NCBI GenBank assembly: GCA_025399215.1
Contig: MU621105.1
Location: 1,112 to 65,111 of the forward strand
Origin: Globomyces pollinis-pini
Taxonomy: Eukaryota > Chytridiomycota > Chytridiomycetes > Rhizophydiales > Globomycetaceae
Direction of reading: 5' to 3'
DNA: 64,000 bases
Shown here: positions 19,477 through 56,070 of the stretch, piece by piece
Position numbering within the stretch: position 1 is the stretch's first letter
Layout of the letters: each line of letters begins with the position of its first letter
The notes under the pieces: model-generated
What the model was told of the DNA's origin: nothing
The model's database searches: none
Seen by the model: only the letters and a program-made list of their open reading frames with translations
Program-made: the position numbers and the translations under genes

Positions 19477-20316
19477 ATGTTGTCAAATTTGCTATTAGCT
19501 ACACTTGCTTGTGCTCTTCCTCAGCCTGCAGCTGATGCTCCATTCGATAGATTTTTCGTTATTACGTTTGAAAACACAAACTATGCTGATGTTCTTGCAG
19601 ACCCTTACTTTGGTAAAGATCTTGTCCCTAAAGGTCGTCTATTGACAAACTATCACGGTGTCACTCACCCTTCTCAACCAAACTATATATCAATGACTTC
19701 TAACAGTGTTTGGGGTACTTGGTTAGACTTTCAATCAAATATTAACCGTGAAAATATCGTTGATACTCTAGAAGGTGCTGGTAAATCATGGGTATCTCTT
19801 CAACAAGGATACCCAAAAGACAAAGGCTGTTTTACTGGAAACCAATTTCCATATGTCCGTAAACACAATCCATTTATGTCTTACAACAACATTCGCAACA
19901 ATCCAGCACGTTGTAAAAATATTGTGAATGCTGACCAACTCTACGTTGATATTGAAAAGAAACAGCTTGCTGATTATGTTTTCTATACACCAGATATGAA
20001 TAACGATGGTCATGATACCTCTCTTGAATTTTCTTCGAAATGGTTGAAAGGATTCCTTGATCCTCTTTTGGCTAACCCTTATTTTGCAAGAACTCTGTTT
20101 GTGATTACTTTTGATGAAAACAAAGCTACCCTAGGTGTAATAGAGTTTGGTGGTAATCATATCTACACACTCTTGATTGGATCTGGAGTCAAAGCAGGAA
20201 CTACCGATGATACTTACTATGAACACTATAGTCAAATTTCCACATTGGAAAAAGCATGGGGATTAAAACCATTAGGAGGAAATGTTAACAAAGCTACCCC
20301 ATTTAAATTGGCTTAA
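19477..20316 (+). CDS. Secreted acid phosphatase / phosphoesterase, copy 1
   Basis: 279 residues, intronless. Signal peptide MLSNLLLATLACALPQ, then the fungal acid-phosphatase (phosphoesterase family, Pfam PF04185) pattern: FFVITFENTNY with the likely Thr nucleophile and metal site, THPSQPNYI, YVRKHNPF, NNDGHDT metal-binding loop, and LFVITFDEN. The family releases phosphate from organic esters outside the cell; some members act on phospholipid headgroups. First of three tandem copies. Intergenic spacers are 0.6-0.75 kb, so each copy probably has its own promoter rather than sharing a transcript. Confidence 0.9.
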   Translation: MLSNLLLATLACALPQPAADAPFDRFFVITFENTNYADVLADPYFGKDLVPKGRLLTNYHGVTHPSQPNYISMTSNSVWGTWLDFQSNINRENIVDTLEGAGKSWVSLQQGYPKDKGCFTGNQFPYVRKHNPFMSYNNIRNNPARCKNIVNADQLYVDIEKKQLADYVFYTPDMNNDGHDTSLEFSSKWLKGFLDPLLANPYFARTLFVITFDENKATLGVIEFGGNHIYTLLIGSGVKAGTTDDTYYEHYSQISTLEKAWGLKPLGGNVNKATPFKLA

Positions 20317-21069
20317 TTGTTGTTTCTAATAAAGTATTCCCGTCTACTTGTGGCAATATACCTAATTGATTTTTGAACCGAGTTTGAATTAGTGAATGGC
20401 TTCTATAGAATCCATATCATACTCATTTAGAGTGTTATGATGTTAATGGTTGTATCCATTAGGTTGAATCATTGTTGTAGTCAAATAATACGGAATATTG
20501 GTAACAGGATTGGGCGATAATGGCATTTTAGAATGACTTGCTTAATCCAAGGATTCATCAAATTTATTGAAAAGACAGGCAGAATTATATGCCAATGGAT
20601 AATGCACAAAGTGTGTTATGCAAATCAGATCTGATAGATAAATTTCACTATGTCGTACAATACCTTGTCTTGAACCAATGTTCAAAAGCGTTATTCATTT
20701 CTATCTCGTCATTAGTCATTGAACAATCGAATTATGATGAATCAATTGCTACTGTTCTTATATTTCAGCATGATTCCTGTTCACACCATTCATCTTGAAC
20801 AGACAACGATTTCATTCACAGTCATCATCTCATGAAACACCATCAGCTGTCGAACTGGTTACTCTTTATCGATTACTGTTCAGTATTGGTCGATATCAAA
20901 GTTGCAGATAATCAAATATATAATCACGTTTAGAGGTAAAATTGGGCAGGTTGTTTCATAATCATGTCTGATGATCCAAAACGATTCCCTTTCGGTAACG
21001 TAATACACATGAAAAAATGAAATATAAATGAAATGAATACTGCAAAGAAGATCTCAAAATATTATAAGA
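20317..21069. other. Spacer between acid phosphatase copies 1 and 2
   Basis: 753 bp AT-rich; the only ORF (20589-20798) lacks motifs. Nothing supported beyond expected 3' and promoter sequence. Confidence 0.35.
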
Positions 21070-21909
21070 ATGAAATTACTGCAACTGGCACTTTTTGGAT
21101 TCGCGTGTGCACTACCACAACCATCTTCAGATAAACCTTTCGATAGATTCTTTGTAATCACCTTAGAAAATACCGATTATGAAGATGTTTTAGCAGATCC
21201 ATACTTTAAAAGTTTGGTTCCTAGAGGTCGTCTCTTGACCAATTCACACGGTGTTACCCATCCATCTCAGCCAAATTACATTACCATGACTTCCAATACC
21301 GCTTGGGGTACTTTCTTCAACTTCAAAGCCAACTTTGACCGTGAAAATATTGCTGATACTCTAGAAGGTGCTGGTAAGACTTGGGTGTCCATGCAAGAAA
21401 ATTACCCTAAAGATAAAGGTTGCTTTGCTGGAGATAGCTATCCATATGTGCGAAAACACAATCCATTCATGTCTTATAACAACATTCGTAACAATCCGGC
21501 ACGCTGTAAAAAGATTGTCAATGCTGACCAACTCTATGTTGATATTGAAAAGAAGCAACTTGCCGACTACGTATTCTATACTCCAAATATGCTAAATGAT
21601 GGACATGATACATCCATTCAATATGCGTCAAATTGGTTGAAAGGATTCCTTGAACCATTGCTTGCCAACCCATACTTTGATCGAACCTTATTTGTTATTA
21701 CTTTTGATGAAAGTGAAGCATTCTTGGGTGTGATTGATTTTGAAGGTAACCACATCTACACTTTATTGATTGGATCTGGAGTCAAGGCAGGAACCACTGA
21801 TGATACTTATTATGAACATTACAGTCAAATGGCACTTCTTGAAAAAGTATGGGGTTTAAAGTCTTTGGGGGGAAAAGTGAGCAAAGCGACTCCTTTCAAA
21901 CTAGCTTAA
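21070..21909 (+). CDS. Secreted acid phosphatase / phosphoesterase, copy 2
   Basis: 279 residues, intronless, same architecture as copy 1: signal peptide MKLLQLALFGFACALPQ, ENTDY, THPSQPNYI, YVRKHNPFMSYNNIRNNPAR, NDGHDT, VITFDES and the conserved LLIGSGVKAGTTDDTYYEHY block. It differs from copy 1 mainly in the first third and in the last 25 residues, while the centre is nearly identical. All candidate catalytic residues are kept, so it should be active. Confidence 0.9.
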   Translation: MKLLQLALFGFACALPQPSSDKPFDRFFVITLENTDYEDVLADPYFKSLVPRGRLLTNSHGVTHPSQPNYITMTSNTAWGTFFNFKANFDRENIADTLEGAGKTWVSMQENYPKDKGCFAGDSYPYVRKHNPFMSYNNIRNNPARCKKIVNADQLYVDIEKKQLADYVFYTPNMLNDGHDTSIQYASNWLKGFLEPLLANPYFDRTLFVITFDESEAFLGVIDFEGNHIYTLLIGSGVKAGTTDDTYYEHYSQMALLEKVWGLKSLGGKVSKATPFKLA

Positions 21910-22486
21910 ACGCTTGGTTAATAAAGATTTATCATATTACTCAACCGTCTTTTTTCTCTTTAATTCTAACTCGTGGTTGGGCTTCAAAACACCAGACAAA
22001 GGGACCATGTTCACGTTTCTCACACCACGATGGTGATCAACGAACGGGGTCTTCTAATTCAAGTATATTCGAAACTTGTAGGCTATTTGATCCAATGGAA
22101 TACACATGAGAGTTTAATCAATAATGATACTCTAGAGCAAATTATAAAGTTATCACCACCAATTTAGTTCTTTGAATAAACCACGTGAGTGCAATTCCTA
22201 GTTTGTATTTTTTTTTGGCGGATCCGACCTGGTGTAACACTCATGCCAAAGGATATCTACGAAACTTAACGTAGGGAATCGTACCAGCACTTTTTGAAGC
22301 CGAATCTATGGTTGTCATTGTCATTCAGGGAAAAGTCCTTTTCAATGTTATAACTATCGGCCGACCTTGTGTGATCAGGTCATTGATGTACTACAATGTG
22401 AGAACTGTAAGAGTACAATTAGTGGCATCTGCCAACGTCTGTAATATAAAAGGCACTGCATTGGTAAACCAAAAAATCCAAATCAA
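21910..22486. other. Spacer between acid phosphatase copies 2 and 3
   Basis: 577 bp, somewhat richer in G and C than other spacers. Short ORFs at 21973-22167 and 22308-22502 have no recognisable content. Nothing further seen. Confidence 0.35.
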
Positions 22487-23344
22487 ATGTTATCAATTTT
22501 AACTTGCGTTTTATATTTATCTACTGCGATTTTTGCTCTTCCAGCTGGTGAACCAAAGGCAGTAGCTCCCTTTGATCGATACTTTATTATCACGTTCGAA
22601 AATACAGACTATGAAGCTGCCATGAAGACACAATACTTTGGTAAAGATCTTCCAGCAAAAGGGCGATTGTTGACAAACTTTCGTGGGGTAACTCATCCGT
22701 CCCAAGGAAACTATGTAGCGATGGTATCTGGGAGTACCAAGGGAGTCTTTCTCGACACAAATGCCGACCTTGATCGCGAGAGTATTGTTGATCGTCTTGA
22801 AAAGGCTGGTAAGAGTTGGGTATCTATGCAACAAGATTACCCAAAGGATAAAGGTTGCTTTAGTGGTAGTCAACATCCTTATGTACGTAAGCATAATCCA
22901 TTCATCTCGTTCAACAACATTCGTAACAATCCAGCACGCTGCAGCAAGATTGTCAATGCTGATCAACTCTATGTTGATATTGAAAAGAAGCAACTTGCTG
23001 ATTATGTATTCTACACGCCAAATATGGATAATGATGGCCATGACACAAACGTTCAATATTCCGCTGATTGGTTAAAGGGTTTCCTTGAACCTCTCCTTGC
23101 CAATCCATACTTTTCAAGAACTCTGTTTGTGATTACATTTGACGAGAATGCAGCTTTTGCTGGTGTCATTGACTTTAAGAAAAACTTGATCTACACATTG
23201 TTGATTGGTTCTGGTGTCACTGCAGGGACGAAGGATAATACCTATTACAACCATTACAACCAATTGGCTACTATTGAAAAAGTTTGGGGATTGGGTCCTA
23301 TCTCGGATGAAGACAGAAAAGCAGCTCCTATCACATTGGCTTGA
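22487..23344 (+). CDS. Secreted acid phosphatase / phosphoesterase, copy 3
   Basis: 285 residues, intronless and the most divergent copy. Signal peptide MLSILTCVLYLSTAIFALP; motifs ENTDYEAAM, THPSQGNYVAM (Pro to Gly change in HPSQPNY), YVRKHNPFISFNNIRNNPAR, NDGHDT and VITFDEN. The central block from YVRKHNPF to NDGHDT is close to identical to copies 1 and 2 at both protein and DNA level, while the ends differ. This suggests gene conversion or strong constraint. Same predicted role as the other copies. Confidence 0.9.
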   Translation: MLSILTCVLYLSTAIFALPAGEPKAVAPFDRYFIITFENTDYEAAMKTQYFGKDLPAKGRLLTNFRGVTHPSQGNYVAMVSGSTKGVFLDTNADLDRESIVDRLEKAGKSWVSMQQDYPKDKGCFSGSQHPYVRKHNPFISFNNIRNNPARCSKIVNADQLYVDIEKKQLADYVFYTPNMDNDGHDTNVQYSADWLKGFLEPLLANPYFSRTLFVITFDENAAFAGVIDFKKNLIYTLLIGSGVTAGTKDNTYYNHYNQLATIEKVWGLGPISDEDRKAAPITLA

Positions 23345-23442: not shown

Positions 23443-25646
23443 ATGGTGGTAATTAAACTGAATAGGTAACTACAGATAATATTTAATACTCTAAAAATAG
23501 TAACCCAACCACTGAAGCGCAAATTGAAAAAAGAAAGCAATTAGAAAAGAAATTGGAACAAGATATAAAAGATATGCAATTGTTACAAGGAAGTCTTGAG
23601 TTAGCTGATGATGCAACAAAACGAGCAACTAACATGCTCAATTCATTTGATACAAGATTGGCCAAATTAGAATCATTTATTTTACCAATTCATGAACAAA
23701 CACAATCATTGACCAGAACAAATATTAGTATTTATAGATTTTAATTAATTATCAAGATTTGGATATAGCTCTAAATATTGTAACTGCATATACCAATGTG
23801 GTAGAGATGATAAATTATCATGAAAATGTGGTTGAAAAAGGATTGGGAGCAACAACTTTAGAATTATACATTGAATCGGTGGAAAAGTTGAAGGAATCCC
23901 TTCATCAATTAGAATCATCAAATTATCGATCATCAGAACGAATCACACAAGACTTGGTAAGATTCATTATCAATTTAATGCTGTTCTAGAGAGGCAAACT
24001 ATCAAAGGGAATACAAGAATTGGATGAATTATTCAAGAAAGTATTGACGAATTGTACAGCTTTTGCCACCGAATCTGATATTCAAAGTTTTCAATTACCA
24101 TTAGGAGTGGAATCAACACAATTGATTACATTAACCAACGTTTTATCTGATTCATTGGAACAAATTGGACCAGTTACTGGATTTCTTAAAATATACAGTG
24201 ACATTAGAGCAAAATTTTTGTCGCAATGTCTTGCTACTAGTAATGCATTAGCAAGAGATCAAGAAGTCAAATTTGGTTACTCTAGAATCGCATACCAAAA
24301 AGGTTCATCCTTGCTGCTCCCCTACGCGAATTCGCTCCTAAGTTTTTTACAGGTATCGTTGATTCTTTTTCATTGTATAGGCAGAATATACGGTAGCAAC
24401 GGATGTGGTTCCTAAACAGCATGTGGTCAATGCATATACACTTACAATTACTCCAGCTGTAGATGCATTTTTGGAATGTACTGAAACTCTATTGAACAGA
24501 GTGAAGAAAAGTTTGCAAAAACGAGATGCAAATGACCTATATATGTTGATTGATATATATGAAGGACTACATAACTTGACAGTGAATCAAGATTTGTTAT
24601 TAGCAGTACATGAAATGAATTGTTTCTAATCATTAGCATTGTGGAAAGAAAGGGTTTGAAATTCGATCCATTTTCTCGACCTTTGCCACTACTATTGTCA
24701 CTTACTTTAAAGAATACTATGAGGAGTTGAAGGTTCTATTAAATTGTCATAACTGTTTAGGTATATGAAAACTAATCTCACAATCAGATTGATCCCGATT
24801 CCAAAAAGTCGCATGTATTATCTCAAGATGGTACAGTTCATGAAACGACTAGTATGGTAATTTTTGTAGTCAAACTCATTTCATTAGACTATGAATGCTG
24901 TTAGGCGAATACACGATAATGTGGATGCCATCAAACTGATTTTAGATACAAATAAGGTACATGAATGAATTTCAAAAATACATAGGGAATTTATTCCATT
25001 TTCCCATGCAAATCTATCAGTGATTATATACATCAATTGATTGATTTACTGATGAGTGATTTGGAAAACAAATCCAAATCATATAAAAAACCAGTATTGG
25101 CAGCCTTATTTATGTTAAACAATGCAAACTACATCATCAAATCCGTTAAAGGCACACCACTATATGACCTACTTGATCAGAACGTTATTGGTAATATTGA
25201 TCGAACTATGAAAAAACAATTGGAAAACTATCGAGGAACGTAAGTTTTAAATTGAAACTAAAGTTTTCAAGATGGGTACCATTAATAGAACATTTAATGG
25301 ATAATGCAAAAATCAATGATGGCAAAATTGAAAAAGTATTGACAAAAGCACAACGTGAAATCATCAAGGATAAATTCAAGAATTTCAATAAGGATTTTGA
25401 AGAAATTTATACTACACAAAAAGCCTATGCGATTCCAGATGTAGAATTACGCGCTTCTGTTATCAAGGAAGTAAAAGCTATTCTGTGTCCAATGTACAAT
25501 CGTTTCTACGATAGGTTAGTGTTAGACTCTAAATCATTAGATATACTACCAATATCGAGTTTACGAAAAATATTGATAAATATGTAAAGTACAACAAGGA
25601 GGAATTGTCTTCACAAGTGGACAAATTTTTTGATGCATCCTCGTAA
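23443..25646 (+). CDS. EXO70: Exocyst complex component Exo70
   Basis: Peripheral exocyst subunit that binds PI(4,5)P2 and Rho GTPases and tethers secretory vesicles at the plasma membrane. ATG at 23443 (MVVIKLN) joins over an intron to NPTTEAQIEKRKQLEKKLEQ and the N-terminal coiled coil. Later exons give TELYIE-like ALEVESVEKLKESL, FSTFATTIVTYFKEYYEELK joined to IDPDSKKSH, DGTVHETTSM, AVRRIHDNVDAIKLIL, RFYDRYTTNIEFTKNIDKYVKYN and the end QVDKFFDASS. About ten introns of 26-35 nt. The junction ELK-IDPDS spans a 55-nt block (24733-24787) made of two complete back-to-back introns. The stop lies 150 bp before the next gene. Confidence 0.9.
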
Positions 25647-41085: not shown

Positions 41086-41843
41086 ATGATTTCAACACCA
41101 CTTCAGACAAACAACAAAGAAAACACTTTTGATGGTCTAAAAACAAATGGAAAGAAAACTATAAAGAAATCAATATTAACTACAAACACTAAACTAAAAT
41201 CAAATATTCAATTTCAAAATGTAAAAGATACTCCTACTTGTAATAAAACTCCTTTGGTATTCATAATTTCCTTATTCTTGTAGATGACTGGAAAAAAGCT
41301 AAGACCTTTGGGTGAGAAGACTAATGTGTTGGACTCGATGGTCAAACAATCCACTACCAAACTACTCCAATCTAAAAAATCTAAAAAGGTAATGTATAGA
41401 TACTGATAACTTTTTAGGTATATCAATCCATTTAACTTGAACTTAGGTATCAGATTTGTTTAATGACAAGATTGGAATGAAAGTTTACAAAGATAAAGAA
41501 AATACAATCGATAAAGAATATGTAGTTGAATATGCTCCACCTCCAGTCAAAGAAATACGTAAAATACTATACAGTTGATCAACTAGCTTGGTGTCCACCA
41601 ATTCAAGATCAAGAATTATTTGAAAATATTGAATTACCACGTCCAATTTTTCTCAGTCATTCAGAAATGGAATTAGGGATTGCAAAGAAAATTCATAATC
41701 ATGAATATGATTTTGAACCTTTATGTCCACCTGTTAATATGGATTTTTATAAACTTGCTGACGATGGTATGGATACTTTTATTGAAGGTTTAGATTTTGT
41801 GACTCTTGATTTGGATCTTAACTCGGAGAGTTTAATCATCTGA
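41086..41843 (+). CDS. Securin-like anaphase inhibitor
   Basis: 214 residues after removing 27 nt, a 58-nt composite block and 28 nt; the total is divisible by three. A KEN box sits at residues 10-12 (TNNKENTFDG), the usual APC/C destruction signal, followed by a Lys/Thr-rich basic stretch and KLRPLGEKTNV, a degenerate D-box-like site. The C-terminal half is acidic with EYAPPPVKEIPWCPP and ENIELPRPIF, like the separase-binding end of fungal securins. Securins hold separase inactive until anaphase. The family is poorly conserved, so the name rests on motif order and composition. Confidence 0.5.
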
Positions 41844-51766: not shown

Positions 51767-53585
51767 CTAGAGTAACATAAATGCCATCACAACTGAGACA
51801 AAGCAAGACAACAGCATTGGGTCATTCTTGAAGCTTCCGGAGAAGACTTTAGTTGGAGTTGGACTCTTTGTGGTGGTGGTGGTGGTAGTGACAACCACTT
51901 CCGTGGTGGTTTCTTCTTCAGTAGTTTCCTCCTCGACTGTTTCCTCAGTGGTACCNNNNNNNNNNNNNNNNNNNNNNNNNNNNNNNNNNNNNNNNNNNNN
52001 NNNNNNNNNNNNNNNNNNNNNNNNNNNNNNNNNNNNNNNNNNNNNNNNNNNNNNNNNNNNNNNNNNNNNNNNNNNNNNNNNNNNNNNNNNNNNNNNNNNN
52101 NNNNNNNNNNNNNNNNNNNNNNNNNNNNNNNNNNNNNNNNNNNNNNNNNNNNNNNNNNNNNNNNNNNNNNNNNNNNNNNNNNNNNNNNNNNNNNNNNNNN
52201 NNNNNNNNNNNNNNNNNNNNNNNNNNNNNNNNNNNNNNNNNNNNNNNNNNNNNNNNNNNNNNNNNNNNNNNNNNNNNNNNNNNNNNNNNNNNNNNNNNNN
52301 NNNNNNNNNNNNNNNNNNNNNNNNNNNNNNNNNNNNNNNNNNNNNNNNNNNNNNNNNNNNNNNNNNNNNNNNNNNNNNNNNNNNNNNNNNNNNNNNNNNN
52401 NNNNNNNNNNNNNNNNNNNNNNNNNNNNNNNNNNNNNNNNNNNNNNNNNNNNNNNNNNNNNNNNNNNNNNNNNNNNNNNNNNNNNNNNNNNNNNNNNNNN
52501 NNNNNNNNNNNNNNNNNNNNNNNNNNNNNNNNNNNNNNNNNNNNNNNNNNNNNNNNNNNNNNNNNNNNNNNNNNNNNNNNNNNNNNNNNNNNNNNNNNNN
52601 NNNNNNNNNNNNNNNNNNNNNNNNNNNNNNNNNNNNNNNNNNNNNNNNNNTCGGTAGTAGTATCATCAGTGGTAGTGTCGGTAGTAGTATCATCAGTAGT
52701 AGTGTCAGTGGTAGTATCAGTGGTAGTATCATCAGTAGTATCAGTGGTAGTATCAGTGGTAGTATCAGTGGTAGTATCAGTGGTAGTATCAGTGGTGTCA
52801 GTGGTAGTATCAGTGGTAGTATCAGTACTGTCAGAAGTAGTGTCAGTGGTAGTATCAGTAGTGTCAGAAGTAGTGTCAGTGGTAGTATCAGTAGTGTCAG
52901 AGGTAGTGTCGGTGGTAGTATCAGTACTATCGGAAGTAGTGTCGGTGGTAGTATCAGTACTATCGGAAGTAGTGTCGGTGGTAGTATCAGTACTATCGGA
53001 AGTAGTGTCGGTGGTAGTATCAGTGGTAGTGTCCGACGTAGTATCAGTGGTAGTGTCAGAGGTAGTATCAGTGGTAGTGTCCGACGTAGTATCAGTGGTA
53101 GTGTCAGAGGTAGTATCAGTGGTAGTGTCTGAGGTAGTATCAGAAGTAGTTTCAGTACTAGTAGTGTCAGTACTAGTAGTGTCAGTGGTAGTGTCCGAAG
53201 TAGTATCAGTACTAGTAGTGTCAGTGGTAGTGTCCGAAGTAGTATCAGTACTAGTAGTGTCAGTGGTAGTGTCCGAAGTAGTATCAGAACTAGTAGTGTC
53301 AGTGGTAGTAGTGTCAGTGGTAGTGTCCGAAGTAGTATCAGTACTAGTAGTGTCAGTACTAGTAGTGTCAGTGGTAGTAGTGTCAGTGGTAGTAGTGTCA
53401 GTGGTAGTGTCCGAAGTAGTATCAGTGGTAGTATCAGTCGTGTCTTGTCTTACATATAGAGCATGATTAGACACCTTTTCATTGCTTCGTTTATATACAT
53501 CTTTGCAGTTAGCTTCCTTGCAGGAATTGTCTGCATTGATTCCCAAGATCAAGATAGCTGCAAGCGCAGAATTGAGAAGTTTCAT
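51767..53585 (-). CDS. GPI-anchored mucin-like Thr/Asp-repeat protein, interrupted by assembly gap
   Basis: Start at 53585 with signal peptide MKLLNSALAAILILGINA, Cys-containing neck CKEANCKDVYKR and RQD site, then more than 200 residues of Thr/Asp/Ser units (TDTTSDTT, TDTTTDTTSDST). A gap of 695 N (51956-52650) follows. The other side of the gap encodes Glu/Thr/Val-rich ETTEEETTTEVVV, a TTTTTTTKSPTP linker and a hydrophobic tail (LLSCFVSVVMAFMLL) that fits GPI attachment. The two sides are in different frames with the gap length as given, so the gap size is probably not exact. Probably a heavily O-glycosylated wall or coat protein; paralogue of the gene at 1-360. Confidence 0.85.
51956..52650. 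other. Assembly gap (695 N) inside repeats
   Basis: Run of 695 undetermined bases within the repeat part of the mucin-like gene. 695 is not a multiple of three, and the reading frame differs on the two sides, so the length is likely an estimate made by scaffolding. Confidence 0.98.
52651..53440 (-). repeat. Tandem coding repeats of Thr/Asp/Ser codons
   Basis: Imperfect tandem repeats of 12-27 bp built on GTAGT(A/G)TCAGTG as read on the plus strand, in frame with the mucin-like gene on the minus strand. A higher-order unit of about 45 bp occurs four times around 52830-53010. Similar but more degenerate repeats fill 1-220 in the paralogue. Confidence 0.9.
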
Positions 53586-54769: not shown

Positions 54770-56070
54770 ATGGATTTTACAACATTAAAGAGGAAAGAAT
54801 TACAGTATTATACATCAAATATATAATTGTATTAGGTTAGTATTGTAGACTAATCATTAGGTATCCAATCCATCATTAACGTAAAGGGCGTTGTGTAAAT
54901 CAAATAACATCAAAGCTGCTGGAAAGGTATCATTATATTGATATATTAACCAAAAAGAATGTAGAATTAATTGAAAGATTAACGGAACATTTCGCTAATC
55001 AATCGTTAAATGATACTGAACCAACTACACTGGAAGAAACTAAAGTTGAACCTACTCAAGAAGTGTCCAATGAAAATGTTGAATCTGATCAATTAAATGA
55101 ACCTCAGGATGATATTAAAAATGCTAAAGATGAACAGAATACTCAGGAAGCAAGTCCTGAAAAAATTGAAATCGTAACCACTACCGATTCTACCACTAAA
55201 TCTATTCCTAAAACACAGGAAACGAAGGATTCAGCTGTGATCACTGCTGTCAATCAGACAGTCAATGAAGAATTAAATTTGTACCCAACACTTTCAAAAG
55301 AAGATGAAGATAATCAATTGGATCAAATCGCATCCGAAGTGGGAGATGTGGCAGTAGCTGCTGAGCTGGATAACTTGCCCTCAAACGGAAATGGTGTTGC
55401 TGAAAAACTTGAATTCTTTGAACAACTAAACAAACCTGATTTAACAAAAGGTATTATCCATTCATACCTAACTAGTAGTTACTCATTTTAGTAAAGTTCA
55501 GATGAAAACTTTACCAAAACATGGGAAAATGATGTAATTTATCTATTCCCAGCTTATTGTATAGAGATGCTAAAGGAGAAGTTGATCATGCTCCACGAAC
55601 TCCTCGTACTAAGAGAAAGAATGACGGTCTTGGAAAAGTTTTGGAAAGGTACTTTATATTATCTCAACATGACAAAATATAGTACTCCAAAGGCACCAGT
55701 GGAATCATGCAAAAAACCGCGATTGATTTCAGAGCCAGTGTCCAGACCACCAACTGGAATATTTAGTAAAACCCCCAAAGTTATCAAGGCACGGTCTACC
55801 TTTCAACCCATTGCAACTTCAACCCCAATCAAGCAAGGTCCATGTCCACTTCCTGAAGACAACCCTATCAAGGTATGTATTCAACCATTTTATATATAGG
55901 AATTTTCATTTCGTCATGCTCCACCAGCTGGGACTATTGTCAAACAACCTTTTGATTTACAAGCGTCATTAAAGAAACCAATCACCTGGAAGCCGCATAA
56001 AGGTATTTATCCTTCTATTCGAATTACAATAGGGCCTCTGAAACCATTTGCTATGAAAGAGACACAATAA
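54770..56070 (+). CDS. NuSAP-like microtubule and chromatin binding spindle protein
   Basis: An N-terminal SAP motif is rebuilt when an 82-nt block (54805-54886) and a 31-nt intron are removed: MDFTTLKRKELQ joined to ALCKSNNIKAAGKNVELIER. A long acidic linker follows (STKSIPKTQETK). The C-terminal half is Pro- and Lys-rich (PRTPRTKRKNDGLGK, RPPTGIFSKTPKVIKA, STPIKQGPCP) and ends with FDLQASLKKPITWKPHKGPL, which matches the conserved microtubule-binding FDLKASLSRPLNYEPHKG block of animal NuSAP1. In animals NuSAP bundles microtubules around chromosomes. Exon junctions around 55450-55600 are uncertain. The 82-nt block consists of three complete introns in a row. Confidence 0.65.

Follow-up and report, generated by a model that had tools for sequence, protein, structure and literature searches.

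Arrays of abutting minimal introns in a NuSAP-like gene and other genes of Globomyces pollinis-pini

A NuSAP-like gene of the chytrid Globomyces pollinis-pini (Chytridiomycota, Rhizophydiales) is interrupted near its start by an 82-nt block (positions 54805–54886, forward strand) that reads as three very short introns laid end to end. Would such a block leave the transcript as one longer intron or unit by unit, does it recur in other genes, and how could it have arisen? The window, i.e., the whole analysed stretch of 64,000 nt, was studied together with a further 300 kb, and these 364 kb served to train a home-made semi-Markov gene finder. Of the introns predicted there, 578 of 607 measure 23–38 nt and 29 are longer; the single introns of the later model have a mean length of 28.6 nt (s.d. 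2.7). The signals of the genome's introns are compact: a GTA donor, a YTRAY branch site followed by 6–11 nt, and a TAG acceptor.

The 82-nt block of the NuSAP-like gene

Exon 1 of the gene (54770–54804, MDFTTLKRKELQ) ends within the codon ca/g of KELQ, which is split by the block, and exon 2 (54887–54926) supplies the remainder of that codon and then ALCKSNNIKAAGK. Both exons agree with P0001, a deposited protein of G. pollinis-pini. The block tiles exactly into GT..AG units of 31, 25, and 26 nt that meet at AG/GT joints (acceptor/donor). Unit 1 (54805–54835) is of the form GT..TAG with TATAATT as its best branch site (A at 54826), unit 2 (54836–54860) is GT..TAG with the branch motif ACTAATC (A at 54853), and unit 3 (54861–54886) is GT..AAG with the branch motif ATTAACG (A at 54879). 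A first-pass annotation had given these coordinates, the lengths, the GT and AG ends, and the joints, all of which proved exact. For comparison, an ordinary single intron of 31 nt follows at 54927–54957, its junction matching P0001. The remaining part of the gene (54958–56070, forward strand), whose joined protein carries the NUSAP domain, contains further single introns at 55451–55478, 55534–55564, 55649–55682, and 55873–55899.

Removal of the 82 nt yields MDFTTLKRKELQALCKSNNIKAAGKNVELIERL... in frame, with the SAP domain uninterrupted at the start of the protein. In the spliced product, Pfam finds the SAP domain (PF02037, E 6e-8, residues 2–37) and the NUSAP region (PF16006, E 1.7e-6), both above the gathering score, and the possession of the two makes the host gene NuSAP-like. 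P0001 is 100% identical to the gene model over 84% of its length and contains MDFTTLKRKELQALCKSNNIKAAGKNVELIERL; therefore, its annotators too excised exactly these 82 nt. P0001 and the other deposited proteins are gene models and are cited here as sequence. With the Pfam match and the same junction in P0001, the earlier claim that the removal restores the SAP motif in frame holds. The sister protein P0002 (Globomyces sp. JEL0801), which is 83% identical, begins downstream of the region of the block. At its C-terminal end, P0001 reads through the 27-nt intron 55873–55899 (NPIKVCIQPFYI), while P0002 and the gene model instead continue with EFSFRHAPPAG past this intron; this end of P0001 is likely a mis-annotation.

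The first-pass annotation had also described the three introns as complete and similar in length to ordinary ones. The lengths bear this out, since array units and single introns do not differ in distribution (KS p 0.85). Completeness stands for units 2 and 3, the branch motifs of which lie at the 97th and 96th percentiles of single introns, and is doubtful for unit 1, whose TATAATT is at the 3rd percentile and is equalled by 63% of shuffles. The scores refer to a motif derived from the branch sites of 608 single introns (YTRAY, then 6–11 nt). In the NuSAP frame, retention of every subset of the three units (7 of 7) brings in a stop.

An AT-rich long intron could contain AG/GT twice by chance. 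Random intron-like 82-mers tile into GT..AG units of 23–36 nt in 0.05% of 100,000 trials, and three-unit tilings occur in about 0.05–0.08% of simulated introns of 82–92 nt. Outside gene models, GT..AG stretches tile into three units in 2 of 606 cases at 82 nt, 1 of 474 at 89 nt, 0 of 495 at 90 nt, and 3 of 465 at 92 nt, in a set that may hold unannotated arrays. Two-unit tilings of 55–60 nt come more easily, being found in 2–3% of simulated introns and in 4–6% of GT..AG stretches outside gene models.

Recurrence in other genes and across the genome

The first gene finder had a flat length prior for long introns and no tandem option. It missed the 82-nt block, absorbing 54805–54886 into an intron of 173 nt, and returned 11 introns of 45–100 nt. 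Five of them (55, 59, 60, 89, and 90 nt) tile exactly at AG/GT into GT..AG units of 27–32 nt; the other six measure 45, 73, 75, 93, 93, and 100 nt. The later model no longer predicts either 93-nt intron, and the 100-nt one sits within a repeat. The 45-nt intron is a single one, well placed in a kinesin gene, so the limit on intron length is not absolute. The single introns of 73 and 75 nt may also be real.

Two further tandems are present in the window, both on the forward strand. That at 24733–24787 (28+27 nt) belongs to an Exo70-like gene (23443–25646; Exo70_C E 1.3e-75), and the branch motif is weak in its unit 1 (11th percentile) and good in its unit 2 (78th). The other, at 41389–41446 (29+29 nt), lies in a gene at about 41086–41843 that has no Pfam match and that one might guess to be securin-like. 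A 24-nt GT..AG unit directly after this tandem (41447–41470) could be coding instead (VSDLFNDK). Elsewhere in the window, three tandem copies of a phosphoesterase-like gene occupy 19477–23344 on the forward strand (PF04185 in the first copy, the one that was scanned), and a gene for a Thr/Asp/Ser-rich repeat protein at 51945–53585 on the reverse strand has an assembly gap of N inside.

Three more arrays could be compared with solved structures. A kinesin gene has 59 nt (30+29) within the P-loop YGATGAGKT, a CDKL kinase gene has 60 nt (29+31), and a CLK/LAMMER kinase gene (C1:20692–20829, i.e., L003:692–829, minus strand) carries five abutting introns of 25, 27, 29, 28, and 29 nt (138 nt) in the catalytic loop FLHDL/GLIHTDLKPEN. 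Each joint is gapless in the alignment with the best PDB match, one match being used per protein. The organism's own deposited CLK protein P0123 has the same junction as the model of the 138-nt array. The CLK reading frame was joined by hand with the omission of an uncertain stretch before STKIILIDFG, which P0123 reads as coding (NSKTKTRKMLV). In animals, CLK kinases regulate splicing factors. A PIG-Q gene contains a 90-nt array (30+32+28), and the joint is contiguous in the organism's own deposited P0003 and in 13 aligned homologues picked from the best 120 of 369; three of these show a one-residue difference about 8 residues upstream of the joint. The Exo70-like gene and a GDE1-like gene (29+30+30) match their families in Pfam, at the level of the family rather than of the joint. 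Altogether, five genes combine AG/GT joints with a protein that is contiguous over the whole block, as judged by solved homologues or own deposited proteins.

The array at C2:6657 (92 nt, 28+32+32) leaves an open frame upon removal. A first impression that this gene encodes a histidine phosphatase was discarded, the best PDB hit being an unrelated enzyme (E 0.69) and no real match. The outer ends of this array and of the CLK array were set by eye, and the two (92 and 138 nt) stand outside the tandem models of the gene finder. They were found by a search for WAGGTW joints and are therefore biased toward their joint letters. Of the eight arrays used in the tests of splice signals, five came from the first finder, in which no internal site was scored, and one is the block of the first-pass annotation. 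A putative array, C1:42529–42652, tiles as 27+34+32+31 nt; it was included in the test of unit similarity and left out of the eight-array tests. Of the 68 products that retention yields in the eight arrays, 67 undergo a frameshift or hit a stop, the exception being one 27-nt unit of CLK. Hence, complete removal matters, and the order of removal does not.

Decoy spacers between the units were used to probe the gene models. Zero-spacer tandems take up 6 of 614 predicted intron sites (three doubles and three triples), against two doubles in total at spacers 1–14. Under a laxer penalty, spacers 1–30 total 12 doubles and no triple vs. three doubles and three triples at spacer 0; under the laxest, the decoy spacers give 15 doubles vs. 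seven compounds (three doubles and four triples). When up to eight units were permitted, spacer 0 again produced six and spacers 1–11 three doubles in total. The total model score rose by 83 at spacer 0; among the decoys, it rose notably at spacer 20 (by 48, two compounds) and spacer 25 (by 41, one compound). A local test with 75-nt flanks was less clear than the gene-model test, scoring 8 at spacer 0 vs. 34 over spacers 1–20 (a maximum of 5 per spacer), probably because many exons do not reach the length of its flanks. As a general explanation, decoy spacers were rejected by these tests.

The first-pass annotation had proposed a genome-wide scan of AG/GT spacing, and the scan turned out to be strongly positive. 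Pairs of TAGGTA, the acceptor/donor consensus, were sorted by start-to-start distance over 18.5 Mb on both strands, genic or not. There are 332 pairs at 23–33 nt vs. 25 at 12–22 nt and 63 at 34–44 nt, 47 of the last at 34–36 nt; the counts are then 50 at 45–55 nt, 128 at 56–66 nt, and 24 at 67–77 nt. The reversed pattern, a commoner word that is informative through its flatness only, gives 225, 215, 183, 192, 158, and 187 in the order of rising distance (12–22, 23–33, 34–44, 45–55, 56–66, and 67–77 nt). The peaks of the TAGGTA spacing correspond to one and two intron lengths. A mild enrichment of the consensus pattern over the genome (279 vs. 207 reversed) is superseded by this test. These counts, along with the recurrence in other genes, refute chance as a general explanation and make it extremely improbable as the source of the three-unit block; a single doublet could still be accidental. 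Satellite repeats were excluded for arrays inside genes. The finding of similar tandems in other genes also upholds the structure first proposed for the NuSAP-like gene, in which minimal introns abut and the exons between them have zero length.

Among the 332 pairs, the 100 listed places resolve into 73 distinct arrays, the longest with five TAGGTA-flanked units. Extrapolation from 8 arrays in 364 kb suggests about 400 genome-wide. Six or more TAGGTA joints at intron spacing occur at C102:3738–3995 and C194:3382–3560, which are, by position only, candidates for the longest arrays; C68:15904–16038 and C12:42111–42255 are also candidate arrays by position only, in or out of genes. The 332 pairs are divided between 136 on the forward and 196 on the reverse strand, more unevenly than expected, perhaps as a result of arrays being counted several times.

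Routes of excision and origin of the arrays

Splice signals within the arrays bear on the route of excision. As a group, the units are U2-type introns, with a GT donor, a YTRAY-like branch site near the 3' end, and an AG acceptor. The branch motif of the 23 units in the eight arrays exceeds that of their own shuffles (p 4e-8), with 22 of 23 above the shuffled median. The same applies to the 15 non-last units (p 6e-6), which keep a motif that end-to-end splicing would not need. Compared with single introns, the branch score of array units gives p 0.085 overall, first units being weaker (p 0.038). The 15 internal donors and acceptors score higher than AGGT sites between genes (p 7e-5 and p 2e-4, respectively), the internal acceptors being slightly weaker than those of single introns (p 0.043).

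These features suggest that 54805–54886 would behave as three U2-type mini-introns arrayed without an exon between them. The compact signals would let the spliceosome recognise each intron of about 23–38 nt across the intron as one module, and each unit would be excised in a reaction of its own. If any one unit were removed, a valid array of donors and acceptors would remain, the joints being AG/GT, so that the grammar [GT..AG][GT..AG] would be closed under removal. This closure favours excision unit by unit, in free order, by intron definition; peeled off in whatever order, the units would always leave an identical mRNA. Unit 1 of the NuSAP-like block may depart jointly with unit 2 because its own branch motif is poor. 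As long as the splicing of mini-introns is efficient, the arrays would be nearly neutral and could persist. Judging from the sequence, the 82-nt block is most likely removed by stepwise (recursive) splicing, and arrays of tiny introns in general are probably excised in this manner, each unit by intron definition and in any order, which would amount to recursive splicing at zero-length exons.

Alternatively, the block may be a longer intron of the ordinary kind, spliced as a whole from its first donor to its last acceptor in a single reaction, with internal AG/GT sites that are relics of its formation or are used only occasionally. The final mRNA would be identical, the 45-nt intron of the kinesin gene (with those of 73 and 75 nt, if real) shows that single introns can be longer, and the poor branch motif of unit 1 would fit. 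In addition, passages of one study describe a preference of short human introns for conventional over recursive lariats (PMC10156609). When one-piece introns of up to 130 nt were admitted as rivals in the gene model, five of six tandems were kept; the exception was the GDE1-like gene, for which a single 89-nt intron was chosen over 29+30+30. Against removal in one reaction, the signals inside the arrays (donors, branch sites, and acceptors) are, taken together, preserved well beyond chance, and the spacing peaks lie at one and two unit lengths. Decayed arrays are scarce too: once tandems are allowed, the one-piece introns of 46–95 nt comprise only those of 73 and 75 nt and the GDE1-like block, which itself tiles. 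On balance, removal in one reaction appears unlikely, and excision unit by unit is preferred.

As regards origin, the arrays may plausibly have grown as intron units were inserted or duplicated. That new introns were gained repeatedly at AG/GT, an existing splice junction acting as the favoured insertion (proto-splice) site, may be entertained tentatively. It agrees with the zero spacer and the AG/GT joints, which the class has by construction, and with the mostly unrelated sequences of adjacent units. Less in its favour, among 608 introns 325 pairs share a 10-mer vs. 227 in one shuffle, with five members in the largest family. This modest excess may be explained by composition, and no copied source element clearly emerges from the 608 introns of the 364 kb.

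Tandem duplication of one intron, e.g., at AG microhomology, with later divergence of the copies, is another, only slightly less likely possibility. Unit lengths are nearly equal at C12:42111–42255 (28, 28, 28, 28, and 27 nt), matches at C68:15904–16038 are offset by exactly 27 nt, and neighbouring units at C2:6657 resemble each other (percentiles 0.96 and 0.99 of random intron pairs). The lengths of adjacent units also correlate (p 0.019), a correlation that is lost without the C12 array (p 0.11). Neighbouring units in ten arrays (20 pairs) resemble each other no more than random introns do (0.227 vs. 0.206, p 0.16), and the three units of the NuSAP-like block are dissimilar (percentiles 0.34 and 0.06). 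As the general origin, tandem duplication was tested and is not supported. The arrays at C68:15904–16038 and C12:42111–42255 are perhaps young duplications or minisatellites.

Relation to known systems and significance

Burnette (2005) and Duff (2015) are said to have described zero-nucleotide recursive splicing at ratchet points in Drosophila and vertebrates. As read from their sequence, the arrays have the defining arrangement of a ratchet point, with acceptor and donor juxtaposed and no exon sequence in the mRNA. The same AG/GT juxtaposition, with no exon left in the mRNA, appears in the portions of the ratchet-point literature consulted (PMC5126111, PMC8605326, PMC10156609), where usable sites are regenerated upon removal of a unit; for the arrays, such regeneration is predicted. 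In those portions, ratchet points are studied mainly in long metazoan introns, whereas the units here are of about 24–34 nt, with 2–5 units in the verified arrays and more in the candidates known by position only. A cryptic exon is reportedly required at the ratchet points of Drosophila (PMC8605326). The arrays leave hardly any room for one, and the mechanism would therefore have to differ from that of Drosophila: in the triples the next joint is only 25–32 nt on, so a cryptic exon could only be the next unit itself.

Stwintrons of Ascomycota, described in parts of three papers as nested spliceosomal twin introns (PMC9024468, PMC7138796, PMC6616335), are likewise complex fungal intervening sequences made of several U2 introns, and they are removed by consecutive reactions. 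According to the same parts, the internal intron of a stwintron splits a splice signal of the outer one, and the order is fixed. In contrast, the units of the arrays abut, no signal is split, and the order would be free: the listed units keep an intact GT and AG at spacer 0, with no split donor, branch site, or acceptor. In PMC6616335, U2 introns that abut and leave by recursive splicing form a type of complex intron of their own, for which Burnette 2005 and a review are cited. Introners, as outlined in an excerpt (PMC9860276), resemble the arrays in being a case of genome-wide intron multiplication; the 608 introns sampled from 364 kb contain no clear family of near-identical copies. The ultra-short introns of ciliates such as Paramecium are also about 25 nt long, and their retention leads to stops or frameshifts; the terms 'tandem', 'merg', 'fusion', and 'adjacent intron' are absent from the main text of the paper in question (PMC5014332). 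Among the matches listed from the open-licence literature, no report of arrays of ultra-short abutting introns was found.

Taken more broadly, we consider it an even call that the spliceosome of the fungus keeps to a tight intron-definition ruler of about 28 nt, that it tolerates longer intervening sequences chiefly as chains of mini-introns removed singly and in free order, and that hundreds of such chains (2 units to perhaps 8 or more) catch intron multiplication in the act through repeated gain or duplication at AG/GT. Discussion of recursive splicing has centred on the piecewise removal of long metazoan introns. In arrays of introns of about 25–34 nt, the same principle would operate at the other extreme of length, and the arrays would inform the question of how small a splicing unit may be. 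Annotators of such genomes should be aware that gaps of 55–60, 82–92, or 138 nt are easily mis-modelled. Since the removal of any unit would leave a valid array, the chains would offer a natural test bed for intron multiplication and for the order in which the spliceosome works.
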